Source of the DNA: a virus
DNA: 34,388 nt
Direction: 5' to 3' (one strand)
Virus record (IMG/VR): IMGVR_UViG_3300021963_000385
Location: 1-34,388 of that record
A model generated the notes under the pieces. The model made no database searches, was not told where the DNA came from, and was given only the letters and a program-made list of their open reading frames with translations. Below are positions 671 through 26,961 of this stretch, one piece after another (position 1 is the first letter of the stretch; each line of letters begins with the position of its first letter). A program made the translations under genes and the position numbers.

Positions 671-1978
671 CTATTGGGAGAGTATGTTTAATATCTCAGG
701 GTCCCGCTTTATTATATCAATTACCGTTCGGCTATTTAAATCAATATTATTTACCTGCTTGTATCTGATGCCCAGATCTTGAGCCATTGAGTAGTGCCAT
801 GGGTGATACTCCCCAAAGTTTCTTAAAACCTGATTACAGGCCTCTGAGAAGGCATCTGGGCTTATGTCACCAGACTCTAGATCTGCTCCAATATCCATAA
901 CCCTTTGGTTTACATCCAGACCATTTACTTGGAAGAATTTAGTCTTAATTTCTACTACATTGGATTTATATCTATCCATAAATATCATATTCTGCAAAGC
1001 ACTGCTAGATATGGATACAAGTGTCTTAACTTCACTAAAATATCGAATGTTCTCTTCTATTGAGCACCCGCCGACGCACTTGACCTTTTTATGGGCCATA
1101 TTATCATTATGTAAAGTTGTATACTCTATACACTCTTCTTTATGAAATTGAAATCCTGGCTCTATGCACTCAAATCCATAAGACTGTAAAAACTCTTCTA
1201 GCTCGTTTTCGTTATATATTCTTTTTGTTAAGACATCTTGCTCAATTAAGGCTTCACATATACTGCCGTACCCTTTATCTGAATATATAACCTCTCTAGG
1301 CATATCCAAAGAAACAATAGGGGTATTTGTATTTCTAAGCAGATATCTTGGCGTCTTCCATTTGCCAAACCACAAGCTTTTAGTCGCATATACTTTTCTC
1401 CAGGGCTCTACAGATCCTTTAAATAAGTATTCATTAATTCTTTTTAGATCATAGTCATAGTCAAGATTGGTTGCCCAAAAATTATCAACTTCGTAGATTG
1501 TTGGCTGATCATTAAAAATGTAATCTTTAACATTAAAATCAACCATCAGCCTTTCTGTAAAACTTTTGTAATACGGATCTTGTGGTGTAAAGGTTCCATC
1601 AATATGGGACCCTAGTAAAAAAATTTTTGAGTCTGTTAAATTTCTATCTTTGATATAAAATAAAGCTTTAAACAATCTATAATAGTATTGATGCCAGACA
1701 TGTCCAAATTGAGATATTAAATATAGCGCTGGCTGACTTAAGAAAAATTTTACGCTATCAGATAAATCTGTTATATGTTTATACTCTACCTTATCGTATT
1801 CCTCCCAGCATTTAGTATGGATATTTGGGCTTATATCTAATTGATGATGTGGGCAAGTGTTGGGGGAAGAAAAATACTCTTGAATCTTTTCGTAGTCTTT
1901 TGTAATAAATAAAACTTTGCCACCAAAAGTTACGACAAAATGCTTTTCTTTATAAAAAGATCTCTTATCAAATGCCAT
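671..1978 (-). CDS. GT61-like glycosyltransferase (435 aa)
   Basis: A 435-residue protein with no signal peptide or membrane segment. The C-terminal half follows the GT61/DUF563 pattern loosely: WRKVYATKS near residue 195 (family: vYisR), YGFECIEPG near 266, and then SIEENIRYFSEVKTLVSISSSALQNMIFMD, which corresponds to the Q-lf-a-iva-hGs-l-N block. The classical HGSG motif reads SISSSA here. It is probably a sugar transferase working with the two other GT61-like genes nearby. The ATG at 1978 has no Shine-Dalgarno; a TGC plus TATCAT extended -10 lies 6 bases upstream, so the mRNA is probably leaderless. Its promoter lies back to back with that of the sulfotransferase gene at 2017. Confidence 0.5.
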   Translation of the reverse strand: MAFDKRSFYKEKHFVVTFGGKVLFITKDYEKIQEYFSSPNTCPHHQLDISPNIHTKCWEEYDKVEYKHITDLSDSVKFFLSQPALYLISQFGHVWHQYYYRLFKALFYIKDRNLTDSKIFLLGSHIDGTFTPQDPYYKSFTERLMVDFNVKDYIFNDQPTIYEVDNFWATNLDYDYDLKRINEYLFKGSVEPWRKVYATKSLWFGKWKTPRYLLRNTNTPIVSLDMPREVIYSDKGYGSICEALIEQDVLTKRIYNENELEEFLQSYGFECIEPGFQFHKEECIEYTTLHNDNMAHKKVKCVGGCSIEENIRYFSEVKTLVSISSSALQNMIFMDRYKSNVVEIKTKFFQVNGLDVNQRVMDIGADLESGDISPDAFSEACNQVLRNFGEYHPWHYSMAQDLGIRYKQVNNIDLNSRTVIDIIKRDPEILNILSQ

Positions 1979-1984
1979 TAAACA

Positions 1985-1993
1985 ATGATAGCA
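1985..1993 (-). promoter_or_regulatory. Extended -10 promoter for the 671-1978 gene
   Basis: Read on the minus strand this is TGC followed by TATCAT, ending 6 bases before the ATG at 1978. Transcription would start at or next to the ATG, giving a leaderless mRNA. No clear -35 box is needed for the extended -10 class. Confidence 0.5.
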
Positions 1994-1998
1994 TATTA

Positions 1999-2007
1999 TG
2001 GTATAAT
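1999..2007 (+). promoter_or_regulatory. Extended -10 promoter for the 2017 gene
   Basis: TGG followed by TATAAT (2002-2007), 9 bases before the ATG at 2017. The expected start of transcription lies within a few bases of the ATG, and no Shine-Dalgarno is present. It sits 5 bases from the oppositely oriented promoter at 1985-1993, so the two polymerase sites cannot be occupied together. Confidence 0.6.
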
Positions 2008-2016
2008 GTTAGTAAT

Positions 2017-2682
2017 ATGATTCCTTCAAAATCACAATATGCACTAATCAATAGTTTTCCTAGATCTGGTTCTACTTTTTTGCACTCCGCACTGGATAAA
2101 TACCATGCTCAATTTACATTTGTAGAAGAAGATGAAGAATATCTTGATAGATACTGTACGCTACATACTGCGTCGCTTCCTCATGTAATTGAAAACCCAT
2201 TGATTAAAACTATGTCAATATTAAGAGACCCATACGATGCAATAACTTCCCTGCTATACACAAAGTATAAGCATATTGGAATGCAAGAGTTCAGACAAAG
2301 CGATATATTGTTTTATGCAAATATGTATTTAGAATTTACCACTGCAATTGAAAAAATGAACGGTTCTGAAAATTTTATAGCTATAGATTTTAATGAGATG
2401 ATAGAGAACCCATCTGCAGTATGCGAAAGAATTATAGCTAAATTTAATTTATACAGGAATAAACCTTCTAAAATTACAAATGAAGATCTTGTAATATTAG
2501 TTAAACAACAAATGATAGATTCTGGTCAACTATCTTCTGAGTCCAGAGGATCTGTAGAAGTAAGTTTTATGCCAGAGAAAAAAGATCCTTTTAGAAATAC
2601 ATTCTCTGCTTTGGTTAAGGAATCTAAAAAAGAAATTGATCCAGCTTTTAAAGCTTATAAAAAAGTTTTAAAGAGCATTTGA
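2017..2682 (+). CDS. Sulfotransferase-like protein
   Basis: A 221-residue protein with the two hallmark PAPS-binding elements of sulfotransferases: NSFPRSGSTFL at residues 12-22 (5'-phosphosulfate loop, family pattern PrSGTTwL) and RDPYDAITSLLY at 70-81 (3'-phosphate motif, family pattern RnPkdv-vSyy). A later FNEMIENPSAV resembles the family's yEdl-dP segment. The expected reaction is transfer of sulfate from PAPS to a hydroxyl of a sugar or other small or glycan acceptor; the acceptor is not visible. I prefer the ATG at 2017 over an in-frame ATG at 1972 because the -10 box at 2002-2007 lies between them. It is short for the family, near the minimal cytoplasmic single domain. Neighbouring GT61-like genes suggest a glycan acceptor. 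Confidence 0.72.
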   Translation: MIPSKSQYALINSFPRSGSTFLHSALDKYHAQFTFVEEDEEYLDRYCTLHTASLPHVIENPLIKTMSILRDPYDAITSLLYTKYKHIGMQEFRQSDILFYANMYLEFTTAIEKMNGSENFIAIDFNEMIENPSAVCERIIAKFNLYRNKPSKITNEDLVILVKQQMIDSGQLSSESRGSVEVSFMPEKKDPFRNTFSALVKESKKEIDPAFKAYKKVLKSI

Positions 2683-2693
2683 TAAAAAACATT

Positions 2694-2702
2694 TGATATA
2701 AT
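2694..2702 (+). promoter_or_regulatory. Extended -10 promoter for the HNH gene
   Basis: TGA followed by TATAAT (2697-2702), 8 bases before the ATG at 2711 with no Shine-Dalgarno between. It has the same layout as the other leaderless promoters in this window. Confidence 0.6.
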
Positions 2703-2710
2703 TTAGCTAT

Positions 2711-2992
2711 ATGAAGACTGAAAAGGTCTCAATCGCTAAGCAGAAAGCCTCTTTGTATAAATATATACGAGAATATAAGGAAAAACATCCTTGTGCCGAC
2801 TGCAAGATACAGTACCCTTATTATGTTATGGACTTCGATCATGTTCGTGGTAAAAAACACAAAAACGTTATGGAGATTGTTCCAACGCTATCTAAGTCTA
2901 AAGTAGATGAAGAGATAGCAAAGTGTGAAGTAGTATGTTCTAATTGTCATAGAGCTAGGACTCATATGAGAAAAATATCAAAAGCATCTTAA
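2711..2992 (+). CDS. Small HNH endonuclease-like protein
   Basis: A 93-residue protein with a zinc-HNH core: CADC at residues 28-31, the catalytic-type DFDHVRG at 41-47 and CSNCHRART at 76-84, where the two CxxC pairs would hold zinc and the histidines bind the metal at the active site. HNH proteins of this size act as free-standing homing-type or DNA-processing nucleases in many phages; which role applies here is not visible. The N-terminus is Lys-rich. The gene has its own leaderless promoter and converges with the minus-strand glycosyltransferase, their stops overlapping by four bases. It sits between a sulfotransferase and a glycosyltransferase, consistent with an independent insertion (moron-like), though no flanking repeats were seen. 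Confidence 0.75.
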   Translation: MKTEKVSIAKQKASLYKYIREYKEKHPCADCKIQYPYYVMDFDHVRGKKHKNVMEIVPTLSKSKVDEEIAKCEVVCSNCHRARTHMRKISKAS

Positions 2993-4149
2993 TCTTTCAA
3001 CCAGCCGTTTATATTCATAGCATTTTTTTCTTTATATATCTGTTTCCATCTTCTATCTTCAATACAAGATAAGGGCAAAGTTTTATCATCCATACAACCT
3101 GCAATAGGACTAAATAAAAAGAAAAAGTTTTGCCACCAACCGTTTTCTGCTACTGGAAGCATTATCTCATATATGTTTGTATCTTTGTCGCAGACAAACG
3201 TATTTACCAAACCAGACCCATGCAGTGCAACTACACTTCTAGTATTTAGCAATATTTCTAGCTGATCTATATAATTTAGCTCTTCCATGTAAACAACTTC
3301 GTATCCAATATTTTTAAAATAATTTTCAAAAAACTCTTCGTTATGGTAAGATCTATTGATAAAAGTTTTATGTCTTGCTTCAATGTCTTTAGCATCACTT
3401 GCATTTTTGAAGTCTTCAAAATATTTTTTAGTGGTTTTTGTTCTAGATATGTAAACACCTTTAGACTTGTTTTCTTTTTTAGTCAAGCAAGATAAAACTT
3501 TTTCTTTAAAACGCTCAATACCGTATCTTACAAAATAGTCGTAATTATAACTGTACTCAGATAAAATTTGCATTTTATATCTCTTATCTTCAGGCAAATG
3601 TTGTTGTACTACAAGTGGTTGAATTTTTAAACAAGCAGTATTAGCTTCCCACTTTTGTTTTTCTGATTCTTTGTACCATTCTGGAAGTTTTGACTTTGCA
3701 TTTACATAAACTTCTTCTGGAATCATCTTATGCAAGTCTACAATCATGTATGCTTCTTTAAACATAACACTTGAAGACAAAATGTTAAAGCATTCGGTTT
3801 GCGTTATAGGATAATGATTTGAATATACATACGGAATAAACTCTTGAATACTGTGATCTTTAATTATAAGACTTCCTCTTTTACCTTCAGAGATAAAGAA
3901 TGGAAGTATGTCACTATCAAAAGTATTAAGTGCTTCAAACTGTCCACATAAATCTGGTATAGCATGAAACTGATTGTAGTACCCTAACAAAAAAGGATAA
4001 GACTTTTCTTCAACTACTTTGAGATCTCCACCGTTATCAATTTTTAAGTTCTTGAATTTAATAACTTCTACAGAGTATGTTTTTTTATAATGACATTCTA
4101 CTTCTAGACTAAATGGGATATACTCTATGCTTTCGCACGAGATTTTCAT
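2989..4149 (-). CDS. GT61 family glycosyltransferase
   Basis: A 386-residue protein with the best GT61 (DUF563) signature of the three in this window: GVYISRTKTTKKY near residues 231-243, YEVVYMEELNYIDQLEILLN near 283-302, and VALHGSGLVNTFV near 307-319, followed by IYEIMLP. This order and spacing are typical of the family, which transfers sugars such as GlcNAc, xylose or arabinose to protein or glycan hydroxyls. No membrane segment or signal peptide is seen. I take the ATG at 4149, which overlaps the stop of the upstream dioxygenase gene as TGATG; a TTG one codon earlier is possible. The two genes therefore look translationally coupled, linking a hydroxylase to a glycosyltransferase in one transcript. 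Confidence 0.75.
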   Translation of the reverse strand: MKISCESIEYIPFSLEVECHYKKTYSVEVIKFKNLKIDNGGDLKVVEEKSYPFLLGYYNQFHAIPDLCGQFEALNTFDSDILPFFISEGKRGSLIIKDHSIQEFIPYVYSNHYPITQTECFNILSSSVMFKEAYMIVDLHKMIPEEVYVNAKSKLPEWYKESEKQKWEANTACLKIQPLVVQQHLPEDKRYKMQILSEYSYNYDYFVRYGIERFKEKVLSCLTKKENKSKGVYISRTKTTKKYFEDFKNASDAKDIEARHKTFINRSYHNEEFFENYFKNIGYEVVYMEELNYIDQLEILLNTRSVVALHGSGLVNTFVCDKDTNIYEIMLPVAENGWWQNFFFLFSPIAGCMDDKTLPLSCIEDRRWKQIYKEKNAMNINGWLKD

Positions 4150-4802
4150 CAATATTTATTTTTTTCGTAAAAATCTGCAACCTTAATAAATCCTGGCATA
4201 ACATATCTTATTGGCCCATCTCCAACATGCTTAACTCCATGGTTAAACTCATCTGTTCCAGGAAACATTATCAGTGATCCAGCTTTAGGCTTTATTTCAA
4301 AATCCTTGTTTGGCCAGAAAATCTCTCCGTCTGTGTAATCCTCATTTAGATAAAGAACTGCTGCATACTTAATACTTGGATCCGTATGCTGATCAGTATG
4401 AGCTTTAAGCTCTACACCTTTTTGCATTCTTTGAAAGATACCAAAAGATAAATGAAGGGTGGGATCTGACTTAGCAATCAAATCTGTAAGTCTAGTTGTA
4501 ACTGTTCGTGAAACTGGATAGCTTATAACTAAAAGATTCTTGTCGTCCCAGCCTCTTGTTATCTCATACTTTCCTTCAGCTACAAGATTTTCAACATCAT
4601 CTCTTCCAAACTTTTCCATACAAAATTTTGCTAGATGGTCTCTATAATGAACAAACCATTGCTCTTCTGGAGTGCTGTTGATTATATCCCAAAACTCTGA
4701 CAACTCTGAACTTGTTATAAAGTTTTCTACAATAAGAATTCCCTCAACTGGTTCCTTTGGATCGAAACCAGCGTCAATTAGCTCTTGCTTTAAAAATGTC
4801 AT
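4149..4802 (-). CDS. 2OG-Fe(II) dioxygenase, prolyl-4-hydroxylase-like
   Basis: A 217-residue protein with the double-stranded beta-helix core of 2-oxoglutarate/Fe(II) dioxygenases. Iron ligands are H135 and D137 (KAHTDQH) and H188 (FNHGV), and R199 is in place to bind 2-oxoglutarate. The strand YLNEDYTDGEIFWP and the KPKAGSLIMFPG turn are typical of the prolyl-4-hydroxylase branch. These enzymes hydroxylate proline or another substrate using O2 and 2-oxoglutarate; the substrate cannot be read. It has a leaderless promoter (TGA plus TACAAT, 6 bases before the ATG) and its stop overlaps the start of the GT61 gene downstream. It is one of six such enzymes in the window and the only one on the minus strand. 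Confidence 0.85.
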   Translation of the reverse strand: MTFLKQELIDAGFDPKEPVEGILIVENFITSSELSEFWDIINSTPEEQWFVHYRDHLAKFCMEKFGRDDVENLVAEGKYEITRGWDDKNLLVISYPVSRTVTTRLTDLIAKSDPTLHLSFGIFQRMQKGVELKAHTDQHTDPSIKYAAVLYLNEDYTDGEIFWPNKDFEIKPKAGSLIMFPGTDEFNHGVKHVGDGPIRYVMPGFIKVADFYEKNKY

Positions 4803-8466: not shown

Positions 8467-10398
8467 ATGTCAAGAACTATTGAAAACCCGTATGAAAACT
8501 TTATTGCACTATCACGATATGCAAGATGGCTACAAGAAGAAAATCGTCGTGAAACATGGGGAGAGACAGTAGATCGATATTTCGACTTTATGACTAATCA
8601 CCTTTCAAAGATGAACTACGTTCCAGATGCAAAGTTGTTAGCAGAACTTAAGCAAGCAGTATATGATAGAAACGTAATGCCATCAATGCGATCAGTGATG
8701 ACTGCAGGTGCTGCATTGGATAGAGATCATGTCGCTGGATACAACTGTTCATTTGTTCCAGTAGACAACCCACGATCATTTGATGAAACAATGTATATCC
8801 TTATGTGCGGAACTGGTGTTGGTTTTTCTGTTGAATATAAGTATGTTAATAAGCTTCCATCCGTTCCAGAATCATTTGAAAAGTCTACAACTGTTATTAC
8901 AGTGGAAGATTCAAAGACTGGTTGGGCAAAAGCATATCGTGAGCTACTTGCAATGTTGTGGGCAGGACAAATTCCAGCAATTGATGTAAGTAAGTTACGT
9001 CCAGCAGGTGCACGTCTTAAGACAATGGGTGGACGTTCATCAGGCCCTCAGCCATTAATCAATCTATTTGATTTTACAATTGCAAAGTTTAAGTCAGCAG
9101 CTGGTCGTCAGCTAAAACCAATTGAAGCACATGACTTAATGTGTAAGATTGGAGAGGTTGTTGTTGTTGGAGGAGTTCGTCGTTCTGCAATGATTTCACT
9201 TTCAAACATTAACGATATTGAAATGGCTCAAGCAAAATCTGGCAATTGGTGGGAAAACAATTCTCAACGTGCACTTTCAAATAACTCTGTTGCTTATTCA
9301 CGCAAACCAGATATGGAGCAATTTATTGCAGAATGGAAATCACTATATGACTCAAAGTCAGGCGAACGTGGAATTTATAATGTCGCAGCAGCGCAAAAGC
9401 AAGCGGCAAAGTTTGGACGCAGAGATCCAGAAGTACATTACGGAACAAACCCATGTTCCGAAATTATTCTACGTCCTTATCAGTTTTGTAATCTTTCAGA
9501 AGTCGTATTACGTGAAAGTGATACAAAGAAAGATATCGAAAGAAAAGTTGAACTTGCAACTATTCTTGGAACGTGGCAGTCAACGCTAACAGACTTTAAG
9601 TACTTACGTAAAATCTGGAAAGACAATACAGAAGAAGAACGATTACTAGGCGTTTCTTTAACTGGACAGTTTGGGCATAAGTTTATGTCAGGAAAAGAAG
9701 ATCTTGTTTCACTAGAAGCGTTTCTAATGACTTTAAGAGAAAAAGCAAGAGAAGTTAATTCAGACATTGCTGCAAAGATTGGTATTCCTGAGTCTGCAGC
9801 CATTACATGTGTAAAGCCTTCTGGAACAGTTTCTCAATTGGTTGGAGTATCTTCAGGAATGCATGCTTGGCATTCAGATTATTATATCCGTACAGTTCGT
9901 GGAGACAAGAAAGATCCACTATCAACATTCTTAAAGGAAGTCGGAATTCCAGTTGAAGATGATGTCATGAAGCCAGGAGATACTCATGTATTTTCATTCC
10001 CAGTTAAGGCACCAGAAGGTGCAATCACTAGAAATGATTTAACAGCAATTGAACACTTGAATACTTGGTTGGTTTACCAACGAGCATGGTGTGAGCATAA
10101 GCCTTCAATTACAGTTTCTGTAAAAGAAGATGAGTGGATGGAAGTTGGAGCATGGGTCTACAAACATTTTGATGAGGTATCTGGAATTTCATTCCTTCCT
10201 CATTCAGATCACTCTTATAAGCAAGCTCCATACCAAGAAGTAACAAAAGAAGAATATGAAGCTCTTGTAGCAAAGATGCCTAAGAATATTCGTTGGGAAG
10301 ATTTATCATTTTACGAGACAGAAGATGGAACAAGCGGAACCCAAACCCTTGCATGTACATCAGATGGAAATTGCGAGATTGTAGATATTTCAGCTTAG
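8467..10398 (+). CDS. nrdJ: Adenosylcobalamin-dependent ribonucleoside-triphosphate reductase (class II)
   Basis: A 643-residue enzyme that reduces ribonucleoside triphosphates to deoxy forms for phage DNA synthesis, using vitamin B12 coenzyme and so working with or without oxygen. Key residues are visible: C94 in GYNCSF and C341 in QFCNLSEV (the reducible pair), the thiyl-radical C330 and E332 in GTNPCSEIIL, the specificity-type GTGVGFSVEY at 115-124, and the C-terminal shuttle pair C630/C636 in CTSDGNC. It matches the monomeric Lactobacillus leichmannii type but is about 100 residues shorter than that 739-residue enzyme. The start is either the ATG at 8467 (MSRTIENPYENF, which I prefer) or the GTG at 8455. 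The gene stands alone behind its own promoter; no thioredoxin-like partner was seen nearby, so the host must re-reduce the shuttle cysteines. Confidence 0.95.
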   Translation: MSRTIENPYENFIALSRYARWLQEENRRETWGETVDRYFDFMTNHLSKMNYVPDAKLLAELKQAVYDRNVMPSMRSVMTAGAALDRDHVAGYNCSFVPVDNPRSFDETMYILMCGTGVGFSVEYKYVNKLPSVPESFEKSTTVITVEDSKTGWAKAYRELLAMLWAGQIPAIDVSKLRPAGARLKTMGGRSSGPQPLINLFDFTIAKFKSAAGRQLKPIEAHDLMCKIGEVVVVGGVRRSAMISLSNINDIEMAQAKSGNWWENNSQRALSNNSVAYSRKPDMEQFIAEWKSLYDSKSGERGIYNVAAAQKQAAKFGRRDPEVHYGTNPCSEIILRPYQFCNLSEVVLRESDTKKDIERKVELATILGTWQSTLTDFKYLRKIWKDNTEEERLLGVSLTGQFGHKFMSGKEDLVSLEAFLMTLREKAREVNSDIAAKIGIPESAAITCVKPSGTVSQLVGVSSGMHAWHSDYYIRTVRGDKKDPLSTFLKEVGIPVEDDVMKPGDTHVFSFPVKAPEGAITRNDLTAIEHLNTWLVYQRAWCEHKPSITVSVKEDEWMEVGAWVYKHFDEVSGISFLPHSDHSYKQAPYQEVTKEEYEALVAKMPKNIRWEDLSFYETEDGTSGTQTLACTSDGNCEIVDISA

Positions 10399-20045: not shown

Positions 20046-20684
20046 ATGCCTATTACTAAAGTTAGCTATCCTTATGCTAATGATACTTTACAGCTACCGA
20101 CAGCGGCAGTCAGTAATAGGCTTTCTGTAAACGGAATTTCAACTTTCTTACAGCCCATAACAACGTCATCTACATTAAGTATTGGTGGAGTTTTAAATAT
20201 AAATGCTCTATCACCAACAATTGCATCTAATAATGCGTCCGTAGCGAGTATATTTACTTCATCAGTAACTAGTATTATTCTTGGATCTTCTACAATTAAA
20301 ACTGTAGAGTATCCAGCAGACGGAACAACTGAATCAAGCGCAAACGCATCAGGATATATGGGTATGCCTCGTGGAAACAGTGGAAATGCTATTACTGGCG
20401 CATATGGTATTACTGCAGCAGATGCAGGAAAACATTTGTATATAACAACTAGTGGTCAAACGGTAACGATACCAGCTAACGCATCAGTTGCGTTGCCAAT
20501 TGGCACAACTATTGTTTTTGTAAATGGAAATGGCGTAACAACAACAATTGCAATAACAACTGATACTTTAAGACAAGCGAATACAGCAAATACAGGAAGC
20601 CGAACATTAGCTTCAAATGGCATGGCCACTCTAGTAAAAATAACTGCTACAGAGTGGATTATCGGAGGAAATGGTCTTTCCTAA
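20046..20684 (+). CDS. Short fibre/structural protein (212 aa)
   Basis: A Thr/Ser/Ala-rich protein with an N-terminal stretch of short repeats (LSVNGISTFLQPI, LSIGGVLNINAL) and a C-terminal part (GKHLYITTSGQTVTIPANASVALPIGTTIVFVNGNG) that resembles the beta-helical or knob segments seen at the ends of phage fibres, finishing with ATLVKITATEWIIGGNGLS, a common fibre C-terminal ending. No Cys or enzymatic motif is seen. The stop TAA overlaps the next start as TAATG, so translation of the Phe/Pro-repeat protein is probably coupled to it, suggesting the two products are made together. Confidence 0.65.
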   Translation: MPITKVSYPYANDTLQLPTAAVSNRLSVNGISTFLQPITTSSTLSIGGVLNINALSPTIASNNASVASIFTSSVTSIILGSSTIKTVEYPADGTTESSANASGYMGMPRGNSGNAITGAYGITAADAGKHLYITTSGQTVTIPANASVALPIGTTIVFVNGNGVTTTIAITTDTLRQANTANTGSRTLASNGMATLVKITATEWIIGGNGLS

Positions 20685-21190
20685 TGGCATCAAAAGAAAA
20701 CGATAGCAAAGACAAGAATAATAAAAAAGCCACAGGAGTTGTAATGGCTACTATTGTTTCTGCACCGTTCTTCCCGCCTTACTTTCCGTTTTTTCCTCCC
20801 TTCTTTCCTTTCTTTCCCCCTTACTTTCCTTTCTTTCCACCATTCTTCCCTTACTTCCCATTCTTCCCACCGTTCTTCCCGTTCTTCCCTCCTTTCTTCC
20901 CATTCTTCCCACCGTTCTTCCCTTACTTCCCATACTTCCCATTCTTCCCTTACTTCCCGTTCTTCCCACCGTTCTTCCCATTCTTCCCGCCGTACTTCCC
21001 GTACTTCCCTTACTTCCCATTCTTCCCTTACTTCCCATTCTTCCCACCGTTCTTCCCGTTCTTCCCACCGTACTTCCCATTCTTCCCACCTTTCTTCCCA
21101 CCGTTCTTTGGGTCAGCCTGTGGATCTGCATGTTCAGGATGTTTCCCAGGAAGTTTTGGTCCTGGATGTATTTGTGGATGTGCAGTTTAA
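20684..21190 (+). CDS. Phe/Pro-repeat protein with Cys-rich C-terminus
   Basis: A 168-residue low-complexity protein. The first 20 residues are Lys/Asp/Asn-rich. From about residue 28 to 143 almost every residue is Phe, Pro or Tyr, in units such as FFPPFFPFFPPYFP; the last 27 residues are Gly/Cys-rich (GSACGSACSGC, then CICGCAV) with six Cys. No known family was recognised. A second start at 20744 (MATIVSAPFFPPY) has AGGAG five bases upstream, so a shorter form without the charged head is possible. Roles as a virion surface, membrane-contact or adhesive protein are all conceivable. The DNA reads as repeats in every frame, so ORFs in other frames here are accidental. Its many prolines make it a candidate substrate for the hydroxylase-like genes downstream (inference). 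Confidence 0.65.
   Translation: MASKENDSKDKNNKKATGVVMATIVSAPFFPPYFPFFPPFFPFFPPYFPFFPPFFPYFPFFPPFFPFFPPFFPFFPPFFPYFPYFPFFPYFPFFPPFFPFFPPYFPYFPYFPFFPYFPFFPPFFPFFPPYFPFFPPFFPPFFGSACGSACSGCFPGSFGPGCICGCAV
20764..21109 (+). repeat. Long pyrimidine-rich tandem repeat tract
   Basis: About 345 bases in which the plus strand is overwhelmingly C and T, made of irregular TTCTTCCC and TACTTCCC units that encode the Phe/Pro repeats. Purines appear mainly in the TAC (Tyr) codons and at third positions of CCA and CCG. Length variation by slippage and triplex formation are plausible for such a tract. Confidence 0.85.
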
Positions 21191-21217
21191 ATAATTTTAA
21201 ACTATTGAAATCTTTAT

Positions 21218-21223
21218 TATAAT
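21218..21223 (+). promoter_or_regulatory. Possible -10 box before the 21254 gene
   Basis: TATAAT about 30 bases before the ATG at 21254, without a clear -35 or TG extension. AAGGGGA (21244-21250) provides a ribosome site, so this message, unlike most others here, would have a leader. Confidence 0.4.
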
Positions 21224-21253
21224 ATGATACTATTAGAATAGAAAAGGGGATAC

Positions 21254-21691
21254 ATGTATAGATATGCAATTGGCACTAAAATAAATGAAACTGAGTACGA
21301 AATATTTCATACGTTATCAGACTACTCAGATCCACCAGCACCATTTGTTGAAAGATGCGAAAATGTAATTAATAGTGGCTTGCCTGTCATAGGAATGAAC
21401 ACAACCCCATTTCAGAATGATGGTTGCACAAATGCAGTTTGGGACGGAAATTCTTTTTCAGGAGGAAATTCTTTTGCACCAATGAATTTGAACTGGGATG
21501 TATCAAAAAGCTATTCTCTTCTATGTGACAATAAGATATTTTTAACAATATTCCAAACACCAGAAACTTTAACTGACTATATGTTTGACGCAGCATTTAT
21601 GCAAGATATAGTCTTTCTAAAGTTACAAGATGATCAATTTGTTTCAAAAGGAGATATTTGGAACGGCTCTAGTTTTAGAGGACCAGAATAA
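21254..21691 (+). CDS. Protein of unknown function (145 aa), fibre-associated
   Basis: A 145-residue protein starting MYRYAIGTKINETEYEIF. The middle holds an Asn/Gly/Phe-rich run (WDGNSFSGGNSFAPMNLNWD) and the end reads GDIWNGSSFRGPE. There is no signal peptide or membrane segment. The segment SKSYSLLCDNKIFLTIFQ looks like a beta hairpin. I do not recognise a family. Its place directly after the fibre cluster and before the small Cys protein suggests a fibre accessory, chaperone or tip subunit, but that is inference only. A good ribosome site (AAGGGGA) precedes the ATG. Confidence 0.6.
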   Translation: MYRYAIGTKINETEYEIFHTLSDYSDPPAPFVERCENVINSGLPVIGMNTTPFQNDGCTNAVWDGNSFSGGNSFAPMNLNWDVSKSYSLLCDNKIFLTIFQTPETLTDYMFDAAFMQDIVFLKLQDDQFVSKGDIWNGSSFRGPE

Positions 21692-21693
21692 GT

Positions 21694-21936
21694 ATGTCAA
21701 AATGGGAAGAATGGAAAAAATCTCTTGGTGATTCAAGACCATGGCATTTGTTTGATCCACATAAACATATAGAAGATAAAGATATTATTAAAAATAGGCT
21801 TGACACATGTATGTCTTGTGAAAATTTTATTCAAATAACAAAACAGTGTAAGTTATGTGGTTGTTTTATGCCTGCAAAAACAATGCTTGCAGATGCTGAA
21901 TGCCCAATTAAAAAATGGAAAAGAGAGCCACTTTAA
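21694..21936 (+). CDS. Small zinc-binding protein, DUF6171-like
   Basis: An 80-residue protein with CMSC at residues 39-42, CKLCGCFM at 51-58 and CPIKKW near 71-76. Together these form a zinc ribbon of the C-x2-C ... C-x2-C-G-C ... K ... CP-x2-KW type that I associate with DUF6171 proteins, which are common in large phages beside structural or hydroxylase genes. The function of that family is not known to me. It starts two bases after the previous stop and so is co-transcribed. The next gene, a dioxygenase, has its own -10 box about 20 bases downstream. Confidence 0.65.
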   Translation: MSKWEEWKKSLGDSRPWHLFDPHKHIEDKDIIKNRLDTCMSCENFIQITKQCKLCGCFMPAKTMLADAECPIKKWKREPL

Positions 21937-21986: not shown

Positions 21987-22694
21987 ATGGAATACGCAGA
22001 CCAACAAGATCATTGGTTCAACAAGGATAGATCAGAAACAGCTGCAAATAGAATGACTGAAAGACAGGTTAATAGTTTAATAACAACAACGAACCCTGGT
22101 CTAGGTCTAAATATCTATCACAATGTTTTTTCAAGAGAAGATGCAACAAGATATATTTCTACTCTTGAGTCAAATCTGACAGATGGGAAAGTTTATCGAT
22201 GGTCTGAGGCTCAAGTAACAAACTCAACAACGCCAGTTAAAAAAGCTAGAGACTGTGTTGACTTTAGATACAAGCAAGAAAACCTTGGCCCAAGAAATGA
22301 TAACAATGCAGAGTTAATTGATTTGCATCAAGAGATTTATGAAAAGCTTAAGTTGTGTATCGACGACTATTGTAGATACTGGGGAATCAATATAACGTAT
22401 TACGAAGCCTTTAACTTTGTAAAGTATGAAGGAGAAGGAAAGCATTTTAGAATACACGCAGATCATGGCCCAGCCTATAACTGTACAGTATCAGCTGTTA
22501 TCTATATAAACGATGACTATGAGGGCGGAGAACTTCAATTCCCAAGATTAGATAATTTAGTATACACTCCAAAGTCTGGAGACATAGCAGTGTTTCCTTC
22601 AAACTATGTTTATGAACATGCATCTTTGCCAATGAAGAGTGGTACAAAATACTGTGTAGTCGTTATGACTGATTTAAGCAGTAGGTCTCATTAA
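21987..22694 (+). CDS. 2OG-Fe(II) dioxygenase 1, prolyl-4-hydroxylase-like
   Basis: A 235-residue enzyme. Iron ligands are H157 and D159 (FRIHADHGP) and H211 (YEHASLP), and K221 in SGTKY is placed to bind 2-oxoglutarate, as in prolyl-4-hydroxylases. The strand YINDDYEGGELQFP (174-187) and TPKSGDIAVFPS are shared with the other cluster members. The N-terminal 140 residues, with CVDFRYKQ and the segment YYEAFNFVKYEGEG, closely match the enzyme at 23481, so the two are recent paralogues. The substrate is unknown. The stop TAA overlaps the next start as TAATG, coupling it to the DUF6065-like gene. Confidence 0.88.
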   Translation: MEYADQQDHWFNKDRSETAANRMTERQVNSLITTTNPGLGLNIYHNVFSREDATRYISTLESNLTDGKVYRWSEAQVTNSTTPVKKARDCVDFRYKQENLGPRNDNNAELIDLHQEIYEKLKLCIDDYCRYWGINITYYEAFNFVKYEGEGKHFRIHADHGPAYNCTVSAVIYINDDYEGGELQFPRLDNLVYTPKSGDIAVFPSNYVYEHASLPMKSGTKYCVVVMTDLSSRSH

Positions 22695-23476
22695 TGCAAA
22701 ATGAAAATTCAAGCCATTTAATTTTATTTAGAGGGACTAATTCTTCGTTGACAGAGGATAGTCCGTCAGTACCATCTCCAACACAATCAGAGATTCCAGA
22801 TTGGTATAAAGAGGCAGATAGATTTGCAAAGATGCCAAATGGAGAATACTATAAGGCTCCACAAGCAGTTTGTCCATTTCCAAAAGAAGGAACAACTAAT
22901 GACTATGGCATGATTCCAACCTGGAAAGCATGTCCAGCTATTCTAGATGCATTTATGACTGGTTATGTTTTAAAAACCCCTTGCGATATTACATTTTTTA
23001 AAAATGACTATGGAAAGATAGATGTAAAAGTTGAAGACGAAAGATATAGATCTTTTTGTACTAAACGGCCCCCAATGCTGCAATTCAAACATCCAGTTGG
23101 ATATTATGAAGATCATTTTTCATGGTTTCCAGATTGGGGTCTAACTCTTCCAGAAGGATATAGTTGCTTATACATGACTCCAATGAATAGATTCGATTTG
23201 CCATTTTTAAATACAACTGGGATTGTGGATAATGATAAAGTAAATCTTTCTGGGTCTTTCCCATTTTTTATAATAAAAGATTGGGAGGGAACAGTTCCAG
23301 CAGGAACTCCTTACATGCAGATACTTCCATTTAAAAGAGAAAACTGGTATCATGAGAAAGAGTTCTTATCTGAAAGAGAAATACAATTAGAATTTTTTAA
23401 TAACGCTAAAAAATATAGGGTTCCAGATGGTGGAGTCTATAAGGACAAAGTTTGGTCCAGAAGAGAATATAGGTAA
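22694..23476 (+). CDS. DUF6065-like protein (260 aa)
   Basis: A 260-residue protein that begins, after a disordered 30 residues, with IPDWYKEADRFAKMP, then WKACPAILDAFMTGYVLKTPCDITFF near 76-101, HFSWFPDWGLTLPEGYSCLYMTPMNRFDLPF near 137-167 and VPAGTPYMQILPFKRENW near 207-224. This order resembles the phage family DUF6065, whose function is not established; the fold is likely a beta sandwich. A second, more diverged copy lies at 24137. Both alternate with dioxygenase genes and are coupled to them, so a partner or substrate-binding role is plausible (inference). The family name is from memory of sequence pattern, not a search. Confidence 0.6.
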   Translation: MQNENSSHLILFRGTNSSLTEDSPSVPSPTQSEIPDWYKEADRFAKMPNGEYYKAPQAVCPFPKEGTTNDYGMIPTWKACPAILDAFMTGYVLKTPCDITFFKNDYGKIDVKVEDERYRSFCTKRPPMLQFKHPVGYYEDHFSWFPDWGLTLPEGYSCLYMTPMNRFDLPFLNTTGIVDNDKVNLSGSFPFFIIKDWEGTVPAGTPYMQILPFKRENWYHEKEFLSEREIQLEFFNNAKKYRVPDGGVYKDKVWSRREYR

Positions 23477-23480
23477 TATT

Positions 23481-24137
23481 ATGAAAACATGGACAGATAA
23501 AGAAAATCTTGGAAATGGTATTGTTCGCTATTCAAATGTCATCAAACCAGAGTTTGATGTAATCAATCGTTTAGAGAATTTGTTAGCACCAGTTGGAACA
23601 ACAAATAGATATGCTTGGCAGCCAGCATATGTTGGGTATAAAGAATTGATGCCAGACTATAGAGACTGCACAGATTTTAAATTTAAGAAAACTGACTTAC
23701 ATTTTGATAAGAGTGAGACTTCTTTGCAGCTACAAAATTTGTGGCAGGATGTATATGATGCTCAATCTGCTGCAGTTGATGATTATAGACGAGACTATAA
23801 TATCATGGAGTTAAAATACTGGGAAGCATTTAATTTTATTAAGTATGGTCCAGGACAACACTTTCAAGAGCACCATGATCATGGTTTTTCTTACAACTGT
23901 ACTGTTTCTTTAGTTGCTTATCCTAATGATGATTACGAAGGTGGAGAACTTTACTTTAGACTTCAAGATTTAAGCATTAAGCCAAAAGCTGGAGATCTAT
24001 ATATATTCCCATCAAATTTCATGTACCCGCACAGAGCTATGCCAGTTCATAGCGGCACAAAGTATTCAATTGTTACAATGCTTGATTACAATAAAAAGTT
24101 TCACACCCCTGAGATGTATCGACCAGACGAGGACTAA
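23481..24137 (+). CDS. 2OG-Fe(II) dioxygenase 2, prolyl-4-hydroxylase-like
   Basis: A 218-residue enzyme starting at the ATG at 23481, four bases after the previous stop; an in-frame start at 23427 would overlap the upstream gene and is unlikely. Iron ligands are H131 and D133 (QEHHDHG) and H184 (YPHRAMP), with K194 in SGTKY for 2-oxoglutarate. It shares with the enzyme at 21987 the segments RDCTDFKFK, YWEAFNFIKYGPG and YNCTVSLVAY, plus NDDYEGGELYF. These shared extra segments, beyond the catalytic core, mark a gene duplication. Its stop and the next start overlap as TAATG. Confidence 0.88.
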   Translation: MKTWTDKENLGNGIVRYSNVIKPEFDVINRLENLLAPVGTTNRYAWQPAYVGYKELMPDYRDCTDFKFKKTDLHFDKSETSLQLQNLWQDVYDAQSAAVDDYRRDYNIMELKYWEAFNFIKYGPGQHFQEHHDHGFSYNCTVSLVAYPNDDYEGGELYFRLQDLSIKPKAGDLYIFPSNFMYPHRAMPVHSGTKYSIVTMLDYNKKFHTPEMYRPDED

Positions 24138-24862
24138 TGCTTAACATATCTGTTGAAAAATCTATGGACTCAGTAATATCTATAGCGCCAATGTCAATTA
24201 AAAGAAATTGGATGGATGATACACCAGAAAAGCATGCCTATAGATGTTTCCCAGTTACACAAGCAAATATGGTTGGTTGGTACCTGTACTCAGAAAAAGA
24301 TGTTGAGTTTACCTGGAATGGCATTAATGATACGAGCTCAGAAAATGTTCAGATTACAAAGGGGACAGAATTTACTTATTCTGGAAGAGGACAGTCTACT
24401 GTAAGTTTTAATACTGGATTAACTTTTAGAACAGATGAGAATATTAGCCTTTTGACTATAAATCCAGTTAATTATTTTAATGAAGATTTTGAAACAATGT
24501 CTTCATTAATAAGTACATCTTGGCTCGATGTATCTTTACCGTTGGCAATTAAAGCAAGGTCAGCAAATAAAAATATAGTTATAAAGTCTGGTACTCCGTT
24601 AGCAACAATTATTCCTATATCATTAACTGCTATGAATGACACAGAAATTAATATTTTTGATTATTCTGATCCTGATAGAAAAAGAGAGCATGCCCATAGA
24701 TCCTATGGAGAGGCAGCTCAAGAAATAAATAAACAGGGTAAATGGACAGATTGGTATAGGGATGCTGTCAATGAAAAAGGCGAAAGCCTTGGTTCTCATG
24801 AAACAAAGGTAATAAGACTTTCAGTGCTAGACAATACCAAAAAGAGAAATGATATAATGTAA
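24137..24862 (+). CDS. Second DUF6065-like protein (241 aa)
   Basis: A 241-residue protein with the same order of elements as the gene at 22694: HAYRCFPVTQANMVGWYLYSEKDVEFTW near 33-60, FRTDENISLLTINPVNYF near 96-113, SWLDVSLPLAIKA near 129-141 and VIKSGTPLATIIPISL near 147-162. Identity is low but the layout (x-C-P-x5-G-Y/W-x-l-x-x-x-D-v-x-F, then the L-x-x-x-P hairpin, then the P-L-a or P-F-f strand and the G-T-P hairpin) fits a diverged paralogue. The C-terminus is charged and helical. Function is unknown. The stop lies inside the promoter region of the next dioxygenase gene. Confidence 0.55.
   Translation: MLNISVEKSMDSVISIAPMSIKRNWMDDTPEKHAYRCFPVTQANMVGWYLYSEKDVEFTWNGINDTSSENVQITKGTEFTYSGRGQSTVSFNTGLTFRTDENISLLTINPVNYFNEDFETMSSLISTSWLDVSLPLAIKARSANKNIVIKSGTPLATIIPISLTAMNDTEINIFDYSDPDRKREHAHRSYGEAAQEINKQGKWTDWYRDAVNEKGESLGSHETKVIRLSVLDNTKKRNDIM
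24850..24858 (+). promoter_or_regulatory. Extended -10 promoter for dioxygenase 3
   Basis: TGA plus TATAAT (24853-24858), 6 bases before the ATG at 24865 and embedded in the last codons of the preceding gene. A leaderless message starting at the third dioxygenase gene is expected. Confidence 0.6.
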
Positions 24863-24864
24863 TT

Positions 24865-25536
24865 ATGGATATAATGAACATGAGCCACGAAGAAAGAAAG
24901 TCAATCACCCCGTCTGGATTTTTTGGAAATAGCAAAGACATGATAGTTGAGCTAGAAAATTTTATGACTGAAGATGAGATTAATTTTTTAGAAAACGCTG
25001 CTAGAAATATTAAAATTTGGGATGTAACTGAAAGCCATACAAACGAAAACGGCACAGTCATCTATGATGCAGATTATTGGAAGGACAGGGTGGCTAGCAG
25101 ACCTTCTTTAGATAAGAATGATCCAGCCATAGGTCCAGTAATAGAAGGCTTATTTAAAAAGCTTAAGCCAGTAATTGAAAATTTTTATAATGTAGTAGCA
25201 GTTCCAACAGGACAAACAATAGTTAGATGGCTACCAGGACAGTTGCAAAATCCGCATGCAGATAAAGAACTACATGATGGACCTGATGCTGGATTGCCAA
25301 ATGACTTTCCTTACTACGACATAGCAAGTTTATTTTATTTAAACGATGACTACGAAGGCGGAGAACTATATTTCCCATTACAAGGAATTCAGTTCAAGCC
25401 AAAGCGTGGAGCAGCCTACTTCTTCCCAGGAGATAAGAATTTTATACATGGAGTAACTGAAATTAAAAGTGGTATTAGATACACATGTCCATTTTTTTGG
25501 ACAATCATAAAGCACACTGGAGAGAACAAGCCATGA
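24865..25536 (+). CDS. 2OG-Fe(II) dioxygenase 3, prolyl-4-hydroxylase-like
   Basis: A 223-residue enzyme. Iron ligands are H131 and D133 (NPHADKELH) and H195 (FIHGVTE), with R205 in SGIRY as the likely 2-oxoglutarate contact, where cluster members 1, 2 and 5 have Lys. The strand YLNDDYEGGELYFP and KPKRGAAYFFPG complete the jelly-roll core. The sequence between H131 and the strand (ELHDGPDAGLPNDFPYYD) is longer than in the neighbours and may shape the active site. Three Met codons occur in the first six residues; the one at 24865 is nearest the promoter. The last bases overlap the next gene as ATGA. Confidence 0.88.
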   Translation: MDIMNMSHEERKSITPSGFFGNSKDMIVELENFMTEDEINFLENAARNIKIWDVTESHTNENGTVIYDADYWKDRVASRPSLDKNDPAIGPVIEGLFKKLKPVIENFYNVVAVPTGQTIVRWLPGQLQNPHADKELHDGPDAGLPNDFPYYDIASLFYLNDDYEGGELYFPLQGIQFKPKRGAAYFFPGDKNFIHGVTEIKSGIRYTCPFFWTIIKHTGENKP

Positions 25537-26279
25537 ATTTAATTAAACATACTAATAATATTTTTGTTTATGAAGATTTTCTTTCGCCAGAAGAATGTTC
25601 TGCTGTAATAAAAGTATTGGATAAGCAGGCATCTAATGGAAAGATTTCTTGGATGCCAATTTCTTTTTACGAGTCATACTCTTCAGTTACGCCACAAGAC
25701 GGAGACTCAGAGTTAGAGGAATTTGGTTTGCCATCTAACTTCTTTTCTAATTTAAAGAATAAGTTTATAGAGTCAGTTGCAGAGGTTGGAAATAAAGATG
25801 TGTCTAGTATTTTTGAAATAGGTTTTCACACTCAAAAGTGGGAACCAGGTGCATATGCCAGAATACACTCAGACAATACTGATGAAAAGGGAAATACAGG
25901 TCCTTTTGCTAGAAGTAGATACGCAGCATTTTTATATCTTAATGATGATTTTGAGGGTGGCTTACTAAGTTTTCCTTCCCAGAATTTAACAATTAGACCA
26001 AAGGTAGGAATGCTTGCGGCATTCGACGGAGGTTTTGAAAATATGCATGAGGTTACTATAATTACAAAAGGAACAAGATATACAATTGGATCTTTCTGGG
26101 ATGATAGAGCAGAATCAGATTATCCTCAAGAAGTTAGAGATGCTTGGGCAGAAGAAATGAAGAAGATTAGAGAGGCTCAAGAAGTTGAAAGATCAGAATG
26201 GCAAGAGTTATTAAAAGAAGGATATAAGCTTGATTTAGATGGACAAAAGTATAAATTTAAAGGAGACGATAATGAATAG
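25533..26279 (+). CDS. 2OG-Fe(II) dioxygenase 4, prolyl-4-hydroxylase-like
   Basis: A 248-residue enzyme. Iron ligands are H112 and D114 (ARIHSDNTD) and H172 (ENMHEVT), with R182 in KGTRY. The strand YLNDDFEGGLLSFP and RPKVGMLAAFDGG are typical. After the core, a charged helical tail of about 55 residues (residues 192-247, ending LDGQKYKFKGDDNE) is present in no other cluster member and may bind a partner. I start it at the ATG at 25533, which overlaps the previous stop (ATGA); an in-frame start 48 bases earlier lies inside the upstream gene and is unlikely. The gene overlaps the next one by eight bases. Confidence 0.88.
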   Translation: MNLIKHTNNIFVYEDFLSPEECSAVIKVLDKQASNGKISWMPISFYESYSSVTPQDGDSELEEFGLPSNFFSNLKNKFIESVAEVGNKDVSSIFEIGFHTQKWEPGAYARIHSDNTDEKGNTGPFARSRYAAFLYLNDDFEGGLLSFPSQNLTIRPKVGMLAAFDGGFENMHEVTIITKGTRYTIGSFWDDRAESDYPQEVRDAWAEEMKKIREAQEVERSEWQELLKEGYKLDLDGQKYKFKGDDNE

Positions 26280-26961
26280 AGAAGTATTAGAAGAAAAGAT
26301 TTATTACTATACAGATGTTTTTGAAGATCCAAAAAAGCTACTAGAAGTTATTGAGTCAACTGAGCTTAAAGACTTTGGCAGCTCTATATCAAAATGGTCT
26401 AGCTGGGACTCATGTAGCGGTGAAATGTATAACTATGGAACAGAAAAGATTATCTATGCTAATGAGGAGGAAAAGTCTCAGCCAGCAGACTCTAATGATG
26501 TAAGTTATATTTTTCATGCTATAAATAATGCATTTTATGAAGCATGCAAAGATTACGCCTTAGCACAAGGAGATCAAGAAGAGCCAAATTTCTACCCAGT
26601 TTTTCCAATCAAAAAGTATAAAGCTGGTACATTTATGGGTGCACATTATGATCAACAAGAGGGAGATAAAAGATTAAAGTATTCTATGGTCATGTATTTG
26701 AATGACGACTATGAGGGTGGAGAGCTTTCATTCACGATCAAGTCCCCAGATGCTCCTATTATTGAAGGTAAGCCTTCTGAAGATTTTAATGTAGCCGTTA
26801 TAGAAAATAAAGAAGCTCTAACAGTTTCTATTAAACCAAAGGCTGGAAGTATTGTTATCTTTCCTTCATCACCGCCTTACCACCACACAGCGCATTTAGT
26901 TAAAAGTGGATTTAAGTACATGGTTCCAAGCCACTGGATGTTTAAAAATATAGATGCATAA
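26272..26961 (+). CDS. 2OG-Fe(II) dioxygenase 5, prolyl-4-hydroxylase-like
   Basis: A 229-residue enzyme. Iron ligands are H125 and D127 (MGAHYDQQE) and H205 (YHHTAH), with K215 in SGFKY for 2-oxoglutarate. The strand YLNDDYEGGELSF is followed by an insertion of about 30 residues (KSPDAPIIEGKPSEDFNVAV and onward) before KPKAGSIVIFPS, not found in the other members. It starts at the ATG at 26272, overlapping the end of the previous gene. It ends the cluster: the next gene has its own promoter 33 bases downstream. Confidence 0.87.
   Translation: MNREVLEEKIYYYTDVFEDPKKLLEVIESTELKDFGSSISKWSSWDSCSGEMYNYGTEKIIYANEEEKSQPADSNDVSYIFHAINNAFYEACKDYALAQGDQEEPNFYPVFPIKKYKAGTFMGAHYDQQEGDKRLKYSMVMYLNDDYEGGELSFTIKSPDAPIIEGKPSEDFNVAVIENKEALTVSIKPKAGSIVIFPSSPPYHHTAHLVKSGFKYMVPSHWMFKNIDA

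Follow-up and report, generated by a model that had tools for sequence, protein, structure and literature searches.

A 34.4-kb viral contig (IMG/VR record IMGVR_UViG_3300021963_000385, probably a fragment and here called the window) carries a gene for a protein with a long aromatic-proline repeat tract directly upstream of an array of 2-oxoglutarate/Fe(II) (2OG-Fe(II)) oxygenase genes, and we read the locus, with a probability of roughly two in three, as an island of phage genes for post-translational modification whose enzymes hydroxylate the tract. In the shorthand used below, F is the (P)P[F/Y]F repeat protein, O is a 2OG-Fe(II) oxygenase, and D is a DUF6065-type protein. More than 100 non-redundant IMG/VR contigs of uncultured phages carry the gene order F-ODOD-O(n) or F-OODD-O(n), and because of this recurrence the layout of the cassette is far beyond chance. 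An earlier note on this DNA (the original prediction) had described the oxygenase array and overlooked F as the likely substrate gene. The genes concerned are these:

20046-20684, plus strand: upstream structural-type gene, its stop overlapping the F start (TAATG); homologues precede F in five other loci
20684-21190, plus strand: F, (P)P[F/Y]F repeat protein with a Cys-rich tail, proposed substrate, conserved upstream of O and D
21254-21691, plus strand: 145-aa protein, common between F and O1, with 57 relatives in cassettes
21694-21936, plus strand: small Cys-rich protein, probably zinc-binding (DUF6171-like, phrog_13558)
21987-22694, plus strand: O1, 2OG-Fe(II) oxygenase (PF13640, 45.6 bits)
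22694-23476, plus strand: D1, DUF6065-type, predicted dUTPase-like fold (phrog_7084)
23481-24137, plus strand: O2, 2OG-Fe(II) oxygenase (PF13640, 56 bits)
24137-24862, plus strand: D2, DUF6065 (PF19541)
24865-25536, plus strand: O3, 2OG-Fe(II) oxygenase (PF13640, 31.6 bits)
25533-26279, plus strand: O4, 2OG-Fe(II) oxygenase (PF13640, 36.5 bits)
26272-26961, plus strand: O5, 2OG-Fe(II) oxygenase (PF13640, 48.6 bits), whose orthologues end other cassettes
4149-4802, minus strand: sixth oxygenase (PF13640, 43 bits), beside a GT61 gene

The gene set and its recurrence

The original prediction had placed five oxygenases and two interleaved partners between 21987 and 26961, and this order holds, with all five oxygenases above the Pfam cut-off and the HxD...H site claimed for them invariant in their alignment. 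The sixth copy it reported is also present and probably lies outside the core cassette. Its description of most joints as TAATG or ATGA was slightly overstated, as three of the six are of this kind (TAATG at O1/D1 and O2/D2, ATGA at O3/O4), the others being a 4-nt gap at D1/O2, a 2-nt gap at D2/O3, and an 8-nt overlap at O4/O5; the O/D unit is nevertheless clearly operonic. The likely true starts of O2, O4, and O5 (23481, 25533, and 26272) are not those of the longest open reading frames (ORFs). Scans for promoters and terminators gave no more signals than shuffled sequences did, and models of defence systems returned a generic 2OG match only.

The association of F with the O and D genes was found from both sides. 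An IMG/VR scan with the two D proteins gave 475 relatives, from which 80 loci were kept, and the contigs that were long enough nearly all carried F-ODOD-O(n). Wherever a locus had room, defined for these scans as more than 1.5 kb upstream, F was there (56 of 56 loci, and 43 of 43 when D2 alone was the query). The reverse scan used a DNA pattern for P[FY]FP[FY]FPP[FY]FP, which is blind to O and D, and found at least 118 loci; among the matches listed, 85 loci had room, with an oxygenase within 2.5 kb downstream in 76 and a D gene in 71. The binomial p for this association is about 4e-43 even at a background of 20%. F and the O/D set stay together despite great variation of the other neighbours. 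The alternating gene order, which the original prediction proposed to seek in other phages, recurs widely but is not essential: among 114 first-D sequences below 95% identity, 88 belong to ODOD cassettes, 18 to OODD cassettes, and 8 to other or incomplete ones.

The genes within the cassette are not interchangeable copies. In complete cassettes, O1, O2, and O3 cluster by position (52/54, 54/54, and 54/54, respectively), with an identity of about 0.80 within the position groups and 0.24-0.44 between them, and the window O4 and O5 have orthologues at shifted positions in both the ODOD and OODD layouts. The repeated partner gene is borne out as well and is kept as two distinct orthologue classes, D1 and D2, which form two clades and appear in reverse order in the OODD layout. 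The HxD...H site is present in 913 of 938 oxygenases of the relatives, another 23 being gapped at all or part of the site, and the residue ten positions after the last His, which serves 2OG binding, is Lys in 507, Arg in 403, and a gap in 28, with no other residue seen. The ratio of nonsynonymous to synonymous substitution rates (dN/dS) is 0.004 to 0.2 for the first five O and D genes when compared with two close relatives. The conserved layout, position-specific orthologues, intact active sites, and dN/dS well below 1 strongly support the claim of the original prediction that this is a dedicated modification system and not drift.

Enzymes, partner proteins, and the aromatic-proline tract

Profile searches with the oxygenases matched prolyl 3- and 4-hydroxylases. 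O2 was the oxygenase chosen for modelling, and its model (mean predicted local distance difference test score, pLDDT, 92.1) aligns with the prolyl hydroxylase 6f0w (Z 20.0, root-mean-square deviation (rmsd) 3.1 over 195 residues) and with the algal prolyl 4-hydroxylase bound to a Ser-Pro peptide, 3gze (Z 19.9, rmsd 2.3 over 175 residues). By these matches the cassette oxygenases appear to resemble protein prolyl hydroxylases.

The D proteins are homologous to one another, as both match phrog_7084. D2 scores 112 bits against PF19541 (DUF6065; cut-off 26.6), and D1 falls below that cut-off, its homology to D2 running through phrog_7084. The D1 model (pLDDT 91.4) aligns with the dUTPase 3tqz at Z 9.8 and rmsd 4.6 over 132 residues, Foldseek matched a dUTPase with an E value of 6.5e-4, and among the matches listed the structural alignments for D1 are to dUTPases only. 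We therefore predict a dUTPase-like beta-clip fold for D. A motif around GIIDxD...IPAGTPxAQIIP resembles dUTPase motif III, of which D1 keeps GIVDND and D2 lacks the Asp; the D sequences have no Pfam dUTPase match and a marginal profile match to a dUTPase. Haloviruses, two related viral contigs, and one bacterial genome have relatives of D with no oxygenase next to them, and D is therefore not tied to oxygenases in general. One of the outcomes that the original prediction named as refuting it was that other phages carry the partner gene equally often without oxygenases. This has come true in part, for these relatives, whereas the scanned loci show no such case among D1 and D2 of the cassette type. 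A search for DUF6065 in bacterial phyla gave one cellular match in 296 genomes of one phylum and none in 198 of another, a near-absence that leaves cells with no functional context to offer, and a literature search found no paper on DUF6065.

The F tract is built of PFF, PPFF, PYF, and PPYF units, extends over about 112 residues in the window, and is followed by the Cys-rich tail. Across 110 distinct tracts, 98% of residues are Pro, Phe, or Tyr (Phe 52.4%, Pro 42.9%, Tyr 2.8%), with 0.6% Gly. Of 2280 repeat units, 2275 have Phe as the second aromatic residue; Tyr, counted 216 times as the first aromatic residue, is never the second. Because one base change would suffice to place Tyr at either position, its exclusion from the second means that the tract is selected as protein. 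The tract also uses its own codons: TTC makes up 92.5% of its Phe codons compared with 12.8% in the N-terminal parts of F genes and 14.6% in O and D genes, a flip that possibly reflects avoidance of T-runs or an effect on translation. Other tract codons were seen to shift too, with TAC at 88% and CCG at 30% versus about 22% and 4% in the N-terminal parts of F. The repeats keep other frames open, and spurious long ORFs appear at 20751-21269 (minus strand) and 20754-21194 (plus strand). Tract length differs even between two near-identical phages, at 112 residues in the window and 239 in L005.

In relatives F reaches about 490 aa and consists of N-terminal FN3 domains, the aromatic-proline tract, and a variable tip, which may be a Cys-rich tail, a Hint/intein-like domain, or a split peptidase S74 chaperone. 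Virion fibres often carry FN3 and S74 domains. At least four Cys are present in 48 of 110 tails, and many tails have none. The Hint/intein-like C-terminal domain replaces the Cys-rich tail in L090, L107, L150, L151, L195, and L198, with Pfam scores below the cut-off where tested (L107 and L195). In L067, L020, L121, and L181 (L181:4298-4588), one part of the S74 chaperone closes F and the other opens the next ORF.

Proposed hydroxylation of the tract and competing explanations

We infer the role of F as substrate, the chemistry, the target residues, the role of D, and the presence of F in the virion as follows. F would be a virion fibre-like protein, and the prolyl-hydroxylase-like O enzymes would act on its (P)P[F/Y]F tract, most likely to give hydroxyproline and perhaps to hydroxylate the aromatic residues too. 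At 100 or more residues, an unmodified run of Pro and Phe would be expected to be very insoluble, which would give a reason for such a pathway; hydroxylation would turn this very hydrophobic polymer into a soluble, stiff stalk. D1 and D2, with their re-used fold, are most likely partners that hold the tract or the enzymes, and in some phages a glycosyltransferase-like, sulfotransferase-like, or radical S-adenosylmethionine (SAM) enzyme may add further groups.

Several observations weigh against hydroxylation of the tract. Likeness to a prolyl hydroxylase fold does not determine the target, collagen-like Gly-X-Y proteins in some relatives could be alternative substrates, and the correlation of tract length with oxygenase number is weak (Spearman 0.29, p 0.007, uncorrected for relatedness). 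Among the matches listed, 9 of 85 F-like tracts have no oxygenase nearby. For four of these nine, the contig has five or six oxygenases at other places, and for three it is shorter than 9 kb; no PF13640 gene is present on the last two, of 38 and 53 kb. In one rival explanation the oxygenases hydroxylate other targets, such as further virion proteins, collagen-like fibres, or a host protein such as EF-Tu, and F is a merely co-located fibre gene. The O2 fold does match an EF-Tu-modifying prolyl hydroxylase as well (4iw3, Z 19.2), and extra oxygenases lie outside the cassette. We nevertheless consider this explanation unlikely, since F and the O/D genes co-occur in both search directions despite variable neighbours and the window ORFs read contain no Gly-X-Y tract.

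Release of a modified peptide from F, perhaps its Cys-rich tail, in the manner of a ribosomally synthesized and post-translationally modified peptide (RiPP) would account for the variable Cys-rich and Hint/intein-like tails, for radical SAM-SPASM genes in a few loci, and for the weak resemblance of O4 to YhhC, a peptide oxygenase. It is very improbable given the many tails without Cys and the size of F, which with its FN3 and S74 fibre domains is not a short precursor; in the representatives scanned, no leader, leader-recognition, protease, or export genes were recognised among the neighbours. Modification of nucleotides or DNA bases by TET/AlkB-like oxygenases with a dUTPase-fold D would fit the predicted fold of D, the D1 motif, and a weak Tet_JBP match (PF12851) of O3, the only oxygenase to give one. 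This match lies far below the cut-off (17.7 versus 34.9 bits), and TET/JBP DNA modification was rejected on these scores. D2 has moreover lost its Asp, the oxygenase fold matches are to protein hydroxylases, and the neighbours are virion genes, not DNA-modification genes, so that nucleotide or base modification is very improbable. Recent tandem duplication with no selected function would explain why several paralogues stand side by side, but it is refuted by their position-specific orthology, intact active sites, and low dN/dS. Hydroxylation of the F tract is the reading we prefer.

The loci vary in what surrounds this core. Some carry a radical SAM-SPASM protein, a sulfotransferase-like protein, or a glycosyltransferase-like protein between F and O1. 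The radical SAM-SPASM gene, which in L136 lies at 9171-10172, was seen there on two independent contigs. The sulfotransferase-like label is our own reading of the sequence, and the glycosyltransferase-like protein has a DxD motif and a match to Gb3_synth below the cut-off; family searches placed neither the sulfotransferase-like protein nor the glycosyltransferase-like module with confidence. At L020:3212-4750, O1 is fused to a 300-aa N-terminal DxD module that shares 53% identity with a separate gene close to F in L181; only one contig shows this fusion, as L020, L143, and L268 are one and the same. Short-chain dehydrogenases occur among or behind the last oxygenases in 45 loci. A D-D-O set in L212 and in L215 is preceded by a gene for another repeat protein (L212:4168-5283 and L215:4204-5286), in which Cys, Asn, and Pro abound and repeats such as NPPTCN and GNCNAF occur. 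It is a possible second type of substrate and suggests that repeat substrate, D, and O may go together as a rule. In the window, positions 671-4802 hold a cluster of two GT61 glycosyltransferases, a sulfotransferase, and the sixth oxygenase, with the same cluster in the near-identical record G001. GT61 enzymes were considered as core partners and rejected, as 11 of the 12 long relatives lack them and the one that has them is near-identical to the window.

Prolyl 4-hydroxylase genes have been reported in environmental viruses, where their use was called "cryptic" (PMC9301287). The locus offers viral prolyl hydroxylases a concrete candidate substrate that can be tested, together with a defined set of enzymes, and DUF6065 gains a predicted dUTPase-like fold and, for the cassette types, a context. 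If our reading is true, this is a multi-step phage protein modification pathway whose product, an unusual Pro/Phe fibre, would merit attention both in phage attachment and as a biomaterial. We advance only tentatively, at somewhat less than even odds, the wider idea of a new viral biopolymer system in which an aromatic-proline fibre is hydroxylated at several positions by a fixed core of five distinct oxygenases, presented by two dUTPase-fold carriers, and in some phages also glycosylated, sulfated, or cross-linked, as a phage counterpart of plant hydroxyproline-rich wall proteins.

Distribution and closest known systems

Eight of the 12 long relatives share the portal at 50-98% identity, and by this protein the nearest cultured phages are Streptomyces phages (58%), from which an actinobacterial host may be guessed; none of O1, D1, and D2 has a tblastn match in these portal-related phages. 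When 257 Gb of bacterial and archaeal genomes were scanned with the F pattern, two stretches matched. One is short and matches by chance; the other is a true F with its cassette on a phage-like contig of a metagenome-assembled genome. Searches of the literature on phage hydroxylation of structural proteins gave nothing matching and no earlier description of the cassette.

Among cultured phages the closest oxygenases are those of T4-like cyanophages (phrog_61), which share the broad family at 24-35% identity but stand at one or two places per listed record, and D has no match in cultured cyanophages. DUF6065 of bacteria (PF19541) and phrog_7084 of haloviruses are homologous to D2 and D1, yet these examples have no adjacent oxygenase or F. 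Collagen-type hydroxylation differs in its Gly-X-Y substrate, which none of the window ORFs read encodes. The procollagen lysine hydroxylase/glycosyltransferase LH3 (6fxk), a profile match of the oxygenases, combines both activities in one chain and has a fibrous target, whereas the phage O1 fusion comes from one contig and the assignment of its N-terminal module to the glycosyltransferases is weak. The algal prolyl 4-hydroxylase (3gze with (Ser-Pro)5) shares the fold and acts on non-collagen Pro repeats, although its repeat chemistry and organisms are different and it has neither a multi-enzyme operon nor a D partner. The chlorovirus PBCV-1 enzyme vCPH (5c5t) is likewise a virus-encoded prolyl 4-hydroxylase fold (O2 Z 17.5, rmsd 2.4 over 159 residues) with a Pro-containing protein as its target, as we propose for the cassette. 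It is, however, a single enzyme in an algal virus, whereas the cassette sets at least five enzymes and two beta-clip partners beside an almost Gly-free tract in phages.

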